A stretch of DNA of 64,000 bases from Chloroflexota bacterium (GTDB taxonomy: Bacteria > Chloroflexota > Anaerolineae > Promineifilales > Promineifilaceae). Positions 60,826 through 63,026 of this stretch are shown piece by piece. The stretch's first letter is position 1. The number at the start of each line of letters is the position of its first letter. Below the pieces are notes generated by a model. That model was not told the origin of the DNA, ran no database searches, and saw only the letters and a program-made list of their open reading frames with translations. Where the stretch lies: contig JAJRYT010000151.1 of the NCBI GenBank assembly GCA_024275635.1, positions 124,001 through 188,000 of the forward strand, read 5' to 3'. The translations under genes were made by a program, and so were the position numbers.

Positions 60826-60888
60826 AATCAGGTAGATAACCGCTTTGTTATGTTGCATATGCTCAATATCAATTTGCGTAAACCAGCA

Positions 60889-60904
60889 GAATACTATAGT
60901 ATTC
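60889..60904 (+). promoter_or_regulatory. Perfect palindrome, putative controller-protein operator before the methylase gene
   Basis: GAATACTATAGTATTC is a perfect 16-bp palindrome 31 bases before the methyltransferase ATG. It contains a TATAGT -10-like box (60895-60900). Its half-sites recur upstream of the controller gene at 62996-63026, so one protein probably binds both and turns the methylase promoter down (or on). Confidence 0.7.
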
Positions 60905-60935
60905 AAGATGGGATTTTTATAACAAAGGCAAAATC

Positions 60936-62102
60936 ATGGAACAACCAACAGTAATCGATCTATTCTCAGGTTGCGGCGGGATGTCCTGGGGATTACATAA
61001 GCGCGGATTCAAAACACTGGCCGGTATTGATAAATGGGAACCCGCGATGAAAACTTTTAAGCTTAATCATCCCGACGCTGAAACAATCAATGCCGATCTA
61101 ACTGAATTAAAGCCGCAGGAGGTCATGAACAAGCTAGGTTTGCATCAAGGCGACTTAGACTGTCTCATAGGAGGGCCGCCGTGCCAAGGTTTCTCAAAAA
61201 ATGTCCCCGCCGCCTATAGATTTTTAGAAGACCCGCGTAACACACTATTCCGAGATTATCTTGATTATGCGCAAGAATTTCGTCCGAAAGTCATTTTTAT
61301 GGAAAACGTAGCGCCCATTTATAACGCCTACGATGGAGCGGTACGCCATGAAATCGTTGAAACGCTTGAATTATTAGGATATAAAGTTGCGGCTAAGGTG
61401 ATTTGGGCGCACCATTATGGCGTACCGCAACGTCGTCAGCGCGCGTTCTTTTTCGCATCACGAACAGGCGTCCCGCCGTCTTTCCCCAGTCCGACATTTG
61501 CGAAAGAAGAAACAAGAACGCTTTTCGGAACAATGCAAGTATACCGTTCTGCCTGGTCTGCTATTTCGGATTTGCCTGTTCTCCAAAATGGAGAGGGCTT
61601 TGAGCCTATGCCGTATGATTCGCCGCCCCTGAACGATTATCAGGAAATGATGCGGTTTGATTCCGAAATCTTGTATGACCACATCACTCGAAAGCTGCGC
61701 CCCAAGCAATTAGCGCGTATTTCTTCGATTGAACCAGGACAAGGGTTAAAAGAGTTGCCTGAAGAACTCCGTCCCAAGTCTGGTTACAGCGGCGCGTACG
61801 GACGACTTGATTTTGAAATGGCGTCTCCCACCATTACCCGATGGGTATTTCATCCTGGTTCAGGGCGGTTTAGTCATCCCAGAGAAGCGCGAACAATAAC
61901 AATCCGGGAAGCTGCCAGAATTCAATCGTTTTCTGATGATTTTAGATTTACAGGGACATATATTGAAAAATCGCATCAAGTTGGCAACGCAGTTCCACCA
62001 TTATTAATGCAACTCTTTGCTACGAATATCATCGCCTGTTTAACCGGGCCAAAAGCAAATGGACAAGTTCATCAGGCGGCAGCCGCCGAGGCTCAAGACT
62101 AA
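60936..62102 (+). CDS. DNA (cytosine-5)-methyltransferase of a type II R-M system
   Basis: Methylates cytosine C5 within the R-M recognition site. The 388-residue protein has all major motifs: I DLFSGCGGMS, IV GGPPCQGFS (catalytic Cys83), VI FMENVAP, VIII VPQRRQRAFF, a target recognition region (about 175-300), IX TITIREAARIQS and X HQVGNAVPPLL. It lies convergent with the restriction gene and overlaps it by 74 bases at the 3' ends. The block from here to the controller gene is AT-richer than the surroundings and free of ACGGCCGT octamers, consistent with transfer. Recognition site not deducible. Confidence 0.95.
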   Translation: MEQPTVIDLFSGCGGMSWGLHKRGFKTLAGIDKWEPAMKTFKLNHPDAETINADLTELKPQEVMNKLGLHQGDLDCLIGGPPCQGFSKNVPAAYRFLEDPRNTLFRDYLDYAQEFRPKVIFMENVAPIYNAYDGAVRHEIVETLELLGYKVAAKVIWAHHYGVPQRRQRAFFFASRTGVPPSFPSPTFAKEETRTLFGTMQVYRSAWSAISDLPVLQNGEGFEPMPYDSPPLNDYQEMMRFDSEILYDHITRKLRPKQLARISSIEPGQGLKELPEELRPKSGYSGAYGRLDFEMASPTITRWVFHPGSGRFSHPREARTITIREAARIQSFSDDFRFTGTYIEKSHQVGNAVPPLLMQLFATNIIACLTGPKANGQVHQAAAAEAQD

Positions 62103-62739
62103 ATGTAAAAGCATCTCCTGAGAGGTGAAACCTTTCAAAAAGCTGTTTTGGGTTAGGATACCAGCGAAACACAACAAAATCATCTTTTTTACGGACACCT
62201 TGCAAACCTGTTCGTGTGTTATCTGTCCATTGCCACTGCAAATCTTCGGCACTGTATTCGGTGATATTTTCTTCAAAGTAGCTGTATTTTGTGCGATCGA
62301 GGGATTTTAGCAAAATGCAGATGCGCTTTTGAGTAACGCCTTGTTCGTCTGCATCTCCTTGTACTTTTTTGTACCAATGCTTGAGTAATGCTTTACCTAA
62401 AATCTGCGGTGACGAATCAATAGTTAATGGTTCAAATCCTAAATCGGCGCTTTTTTTAAAAATATCAGCGCGTTGGATCACAATTTCAAAGGCGGTAGGC
62501 AAGTTCAGTGATTTTTGAATGGCTTTTGCTGACCACCCAATACCTGACGACTGATCTACTACATCATATAGTAATTTTTTCCGAGTATTCTGTAAGGGGT
62601 CTACAATGGGTATATCTCTGACATAGGAGAACATCGCTTCCCAAATGAAGTCTGTTATGTCATGAATAAAGGGAATAGCATAGGCGGCTTGTATGCTCTC
62701 AATGAGGCGTCGTTTTTCGATGTTGGTTAGTCTATACAC
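62029..62739 (-). CDS. Predicted type II restriction endonuclease
   Basis: The 236-residue protein has no motif I can name with certainty; identity comes from its place: it shares an operon (start overlapping the controller stop by 8 bases) with an XRE controller and converges with a C5 methyltransferase. It has helical N-terminal text (TNIEKRRLIESIQAAYAIPFI), charged mid-region with candidate active-site acids (DSSPQILGKALLKHW, FEENITEYSAEDLQW) and C-terminal basic residues. It reads AT-rich. A PD-(D/E)xK, HNH or other fold cannot be decided from sight. Confidence 0.75.
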   Translation of the reverse strand: MYRLTNIEKRRLIESIQAAYAIPFIHDITDFIWEAMFSYVRDIPIVDPLQNTRKKLLYDVVDQSSGIGWSAKAIQKSLNLPTAFEIVIQRADIFKKSADLGFEPLTIDSSPQILGKALLKHWYKKVQGDADEQGVTQKRICILLKSLDRTKYSYFEENITEYSAEDLQWQWTDNTRTGLQGVRKKDDFVVFRWYPNPKQLFERFHLSGDAFTFSLEPRRLPPDELVHLLLARLNRR

Positions 62740-62980
62740 TTGATGATGTCTCCTTGTTCATTTCGGCTTCGACTAAATACATAAACTCGCAGAGACTGAT
62801 ATCAAGCGCTTGTGCAATTTTTTGAATGGTATTGAGGGATGGACTCTTAAGACCCCGTTCAAGTTGGCTCACATAGGTTCTGTGAATCCCAACTTCGAAA
62901 GCAAATGTTTCCTGGCTCAATCCTTTGTTAAGCCGCAATTCTTGTAATATTTTTGCAAACGCTTTGTTTATCATTGCCAT
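62732..62980 (-). CDS. Restriction-modification controller (XRE-family HTH) protein
   Basis: The 82-residue protein is a classical C protein: ILQELRLNKGLSQETFAFEVG and IHRTYVSQLERGLKSPSLNTIQKIAQAL form an XRE helix-turn-helix with the C-protein style. Start at ATG 62980 (GCA ATG follows, so 62974 is an alternative). It precedes the restriction gene on the same strand with overlap, so it should control its own and the nuclease gene's transcription, delaying cleavage until methylation is in place (known for the family). Its likely operators are at 62996-63026 and 60889-60904. Confidence 0.9.
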   Translation of the reverse strand: MAMINKAFAKILQELRLNKGLSQETFAFEVGIHRTYVSQLERGLKSPSLNTIQKIAQALDISLCEFMYLVEAEMNKETSSSV

Positions 62981-62995
62981 TAAGTGTAACGACTT

Positions 62996-63026
62996 GAATA
63001 CTGTTGCTCTACACACTAAAGTATTC
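62996..63026 (-). promoter_or_regulatory. Inverted half-sites, putative operator before the controller gene
   Basis: GAATACT (62996-63002) and AGTATTC (63020-63026) are 17 bases apart, with GACTT before and AGTC after, resembling C-box architecture. It lies 15 bases upstream of the controller ATG on the minus strand and uses the same half-sites as the palindrome at 60889-60904. Confidence 0.68.

Follow-up and report, generated by a model that had tools for sequence, protein, structure and literature searches.

The window analysed here is a 64-kb (64,000-nucleotide) stretch of the genome of a member of the Anaerolineae, and between 60826 and 63069 it carries a three-gene module which, judged by its sequence, is a C-protein-controlled type II restriction-modification system with the controller and nuclease genes (C-R) convergent with the methylase gene (M). 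M (60936..62102, + strand) encodes a C5-cytosine DNA methyltransferase of 388 aa (PF00145 3e-60; PADLOC MTase_II 3e-104) in which the catalytic domain recognised by Pfam begins at residue 5, with neither an N-terminal HTH nor an N-terminal extension. R (62029..62739, - strand) encodes the predicted type II restriction endonuclease of 236 aa and C (62732..62974, - strand) the controller protein of 80 aa, which was identified from profiles, solved relatives and comparison with homologues. The start of C was set at 62974 from the comparison with its relatives, an alternative ATG being located at 62980. C lies directly before R in the same orientation, with an 8-bp overlap between its 3' end and the start of R. 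The convergent M and R genes share 74 bp at their 3' ends (62029-62102), where their transcripts would be antisense to each other, and in two of the related loci (L009 and L012) M and R likewise overlap by tens of bases. The top-scoring solved relatives of M were eukaryotic DNMT1 entries and not HhaI or HaeIII, and these DNMT1-like matches perhaps point to a CG-containing target.

The first-pass annotation had described the controller as a C-type HTH protein and this identity is borne out by a match to the PADLOC Control_protein profile (6e-17), by a single HTH_3 domain (3e-18) and by the nearest solved relatives in the PDB (phmmer), which were C.BclI (1e-12), C.AhdI (3e-11) and C.Esp1396I (8e-8), the last with 28% identity across the stretch compared. 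The RTY and ER residues in the recognition region of C are conserved. R had been taken to be the nuclease of the module, in agreement with its match to the PADLOC REase_II profile (1e-46) and its PD-(D/E)XK-like predicted fold; it fell into no Pfam or NCBIfam family and a sequence search of solved structures (PDB) gave no match. Using a model of R built from ten homologues (pLDDT 92.5) we obtained structural alignments in VIA-align with modest Z scores to 3ndh (Z 8.1), HinP1I (Z 8.0), EcoRV (6.4) and SfiI (6.2), and nearly all of the top-ranking structures were restriction enzymes or related PD-(D/E)XK nucleases. Foldseek alone returned no significant fold match for the model and the fold assignment therefore rests on VIA-align and the PADLOC profile. 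Five residues are invariant in the R alignment (E34, D59, D62, S70 and K72) and would fit a PD-(D/E)XK active site, and we predict that R is a PD-(D/E)XK-like restriction endonuclease.

A perfect palindrome before M and a GAATACT-N17-AGTATTC pair before C had been noted as sharing one half-site, and both are exact. The palindrome, GAATACTATAGTATTC (60889..60904), is an exact 16-bp candidate operator for a single dimer (OM) located 31 bp before M. The C operator lies approximately 2 kb away, at the convergent genes, as a 31-bp element GAATACTTTAGTGTGTAGAGCAACAGTATTC that runs from 63026 down to 62996 just before C and has the GAATACT half-site at both ends (GAATACT at 62996-63002 and AGTATTC at 63020-63026, both exact and 17 bases apart). 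Within it we distinguish a distal dimer site OL, GAATACTTTAGTGTGT (63011..63026, - strand), which agrees with OM at 12 of 16 positions, and a proximal dimer site OR, TAGAGCAACAGTATTC (62996..63011, - strand), which agrees with OM at 10 of 16 positions and contains the -35-like hexamer TAGAGC. The first-pass proposal of a dimer-dimer site at the controller is supported at the level of sequence and can be refined: the two GAATACT sequences are the outer two of four half-sites, with the OL and OR dyads 15 bp apart, and do not form one wide site. These outer half-sites are GAATACT in the window and the inner ones are poor, the exact GACT/AGTC box being absent, and because of the poor inner half-sites OR may be very weak.

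The abundance of the bare 7-mer GAATACT in the window is within chance (mean 3.5), with four of its five matches being operator half-sites. The fifth is a lone AGTATTC at 62584-62590 inside R (GAATACT on the - strand) which has no partner and is probably there by chance. A search of the entire genome (5.7 Mb) for GAATACT-N(0-24)-AGTATTC gave OM, the C operator and no other site, and a reversed control pattern occurs once. A single inverted pair is thus explicable by chance, while one at each of the two promoters of a single module is not expected by chance. The OM palindrome has no second copy in the genome with up to two mismatches allowed. A matrix built solely from the C operators of relatives, with the nearest relative left out, ranked the palindrome first in a scan of the 64-kb window with 19.2 bits (runner-up 13.5), OL coming third with 12.1, and when the sequence upstream of the methylase gene was shuffled 500 times the score of the palindrome was never attained. 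The ranking links the methylase site with the controller by a route that does not depend on the first-pass annotation.

Relatives of the module were collected by searching genome contigs with R as query, which gave eleven loci with titles including Latescibacterota, Poribacteria, Anaerolineales (two), Anaerolineae, Prevotellaceae, Oscillospiraceae, Clostridia, Clostridium and a unicellular cyanobacterium; searches of viral contigs with C, and of plasmids and viral contigs with R, returned no relatives. A C gene precedes R in 10 of the 11 and the gene order of the window recurs in L009, L011, L012, L013, L015, L016 and L019. The first-pass annotation had pointed to close relatives as the place to look for the operator pair, and there a related operator stands before C in all ten C-bearing loci (Latescibacterota, Anaerolineales/Anaerolineae, Prevotellaceae, Clostridia and the cyanobacterium among them) and a single-dimer site before M in six of the nine with a readable methylase upstream region. 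The 31-bp two-site layout is present in nine of the ten C operators, L013 having a longer gap; four of the nine (L015, L016, L017 and L018) have a one-base shift of the distal half-site, and the L016 operator is poor. As a group the C operators of the relatives have outer GAATACT half-sites and inner half-sites close to GACT, the two dyads being separated by 15 bp, and in most of them the inner half-sites contain the exact GACT/AGTC box.

At the methylase, the 16-mer of OM is identical in L012, differs by one base in L011 and L006 and by two in L009, and the M sites of these four loci were equalled by 0-3 of 500 shuffles. Weaker sites were found in L013 and L015, with 1 and 5 of 500 shuffles as good, respectively. 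No standout OM was detected by the matrix scan before M in L016 and L019, and methylase control would accordingly not be universal in the module family. The one locus in which C was not detected, L010, has R and M homologues (L010:5001-6810) with approximately 56 and 69% identity, no C found within its 10.7 kb and no operator before M, and appears to be a naturally occurring form of the module that lacks C.

The hexamer TATAGT within the palindrome had been read as a methylase promoter overlap and we likewise predict it to be the -10 element (60895-60900) of a methylase promoter at 60873..60900 (+ strand), with a -35-like TTTGCG at 60873-60878 and a 16-bp spacer. L011 and L012 have TATAGT inside the operator as the -10 and, upstream, a consensus TTGACA whose distance from the operator is almost that of the -35-like hexamer in the window; the window has the same -10 and a weak -35. 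The predicted C/R promoter (62983..63011, - strand) consists of a -35-like TAGAGC at 63011-63006, a 17-bp spacer and a -10-like TACACT at 62988-62983, which would place the start of the transcript on the C start codon or a few bases ahead of it. In six loci, the window among them, there is a -10-like hexamer seven or eight bases past OR, and the -35 position coincides with the inner OR half-site in the window and in L014, L011, L015, L017 and L018, reading TAGAGC in the window and L014 (the nearest relative), TAGATT in L011 and TAGACT in L015, L017 and L018. A general promoter scan of the window found neither of the two proposed promoters, whose -35 hexamers are weak, the methylase promoter being missed because of its weak -35, and the support for both thus comes from their position in the relatives. 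These positions are consistent with repression of the methylase and with a dimer-dimer site at C.

The closest known parallel is Esp1396I, in which C/R is convergent to M (PMC4041747, PMC3758141), with activation by a controller dimer at OL that recruits polymerase, repression by a second dimer at OR that displaces it, and repression of M through OM (PMC4041747). A separate OM controlling the methylase has been called unusual (PMC4041747). The module in the window resembles Esp1396I in having a C-R operon convergent with M, a homologous C-protein, a single site at the methylase promoter and a tandem two-dimer site at the C/R promoter with OR in the -35 region. It differs in its half-site, which is GAATACT here and a GAC/GACT box with outer TG in Esp1396I, in the location of OM, which covers the predicted -10 here and is described at the transcription start in Esp1396I (PMC4041747), and in its endonuclease, which with no PDB relative is apparently of another sequence family. 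The oligonucleotides printed for Esp1396I give 14 bp between dyads as printed and 15 bp if 25OL, printed with 24 letters, misses one letter (PMC3758141). C.BclI and C.AhdI, the nearest solved controllers by sequence, are likewise small HTH proteins that act at inverted repeats arranged in pairs. In Kpn2I, by contrast, a site within the C gene serves as a roadblock, and in EcoRV it is the C operator itself that overlaps the methylase promoter, through its distal, high-affinity site, whereas here two separate operators approximately 2 kb apart serve convergent genes. No exact match to the operator letters was found in the literature searched, which does not include the survey of C-protein motifs by Sorokin et al. 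2009. The kind of circuit is already known from Esp1396I and the extended half-site is a minor difference.

What is observed here is which genes are present and in what order, the operators together with their conservation, and where these operators lie relative to the predicted promoters; binding, activation, repression and timing by C we infer from the likeness to Esp1396I. Most probably C acts as in that system, first activating and then repressing its own operon and repressing the methylase. On entry into a new host the methylase promoter would be free and the weak C/R promoter low; as C accumulates a dimer at OL would bring RNA polymerase to this promoter, a second dimer binding cooperatively at OR would then cover its -35 and limit it, and a dimer at OM would cover the methylase -10 and turn M down. 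Methylase would thus be made first and nuclease later, with both then held in check. The falling match to the best half-site suggests an affinity order of OM > OL > OR. It is a tentative further idea, for which we would not claim even chances, that the module stands for a separate C-protein specificity class, which would have spread together with a single endonuclease family across several phyla and would use hybrid operators in which the outer half-sites would be GAATACT, the inner ones near classic GACT and OM a combination of two outer half-sites, so that the affinity order OM > OL > OR would be built in.

Were C a repressor only, binding OM and the C operator and lowering both promoters with no activation phase, the location of OM over the predicted methylase -10 and of the C operator over the predicted C/R -35 region would be explained, OR is weak, and activation cannot be read from sequence. 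We consider this unlikely, however, since OL lies upstream of the -35, where Esp1396I has its activating site (PMC4041747), the C/R hexamers are weak as expected of an activator-dependent promoter and the two-site layout is retained in most relatives.

It is far less probable still that the palindrome serves another regulator, or a methylase that regulates itself as in SsoII, with C uninvolved. The palindrome is linked to C at the level of sequence, and methylases with a regulatory N-terminal region of their own do exist (M.SsoII, PMC3978073). Self-regulation by the methylase was nevertheless rejected for M, which has no N-terminal extension and is catalytic domain from residue 5 onwards, and a different regulator is at odds with the presence of the same half-site before C in relatives whose C operators yield a matrix that finds OM, with the joint absence of C and the M site in L010 and with the lack of a further genomic copy of the palindrome at up to two mismatches. 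That the inverted repeats are functionless products of chance we regard as practically negligible: although one instance of the reversed control pattern is present in the genome too and the 7-mer is not over-represented in the window, the sites are kept at the same places across phyla, a finding that speaks against chance, and the matrix and shuffle tests agree. The Esp1396I-like circuit is accordingly the reading we prefer.

The genes flanking the module are a radical SAM gene (tRNA methylthiotransferase type) before it and a beta-lactamase-family serine hydrolase gene after it. In L023, which is a genome from the same genus, they are adjacent, approximately 90 bp apart (88 bp), and in another genus of the same family (L027) their homologues are approximately 50 bp apart, with no restriction-modification genes between them in either. 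As the flanks adjoin in both, the module is most simply seen as a clean insertion in this lineage that was horizontally acquired. It represents a compact and readable case of putative controller-timed restriction in Anaerolineae, and its relatives across phyla, including a probable C-less one, would allow operator strength to be compared with the order of methylase and nuclease expression.
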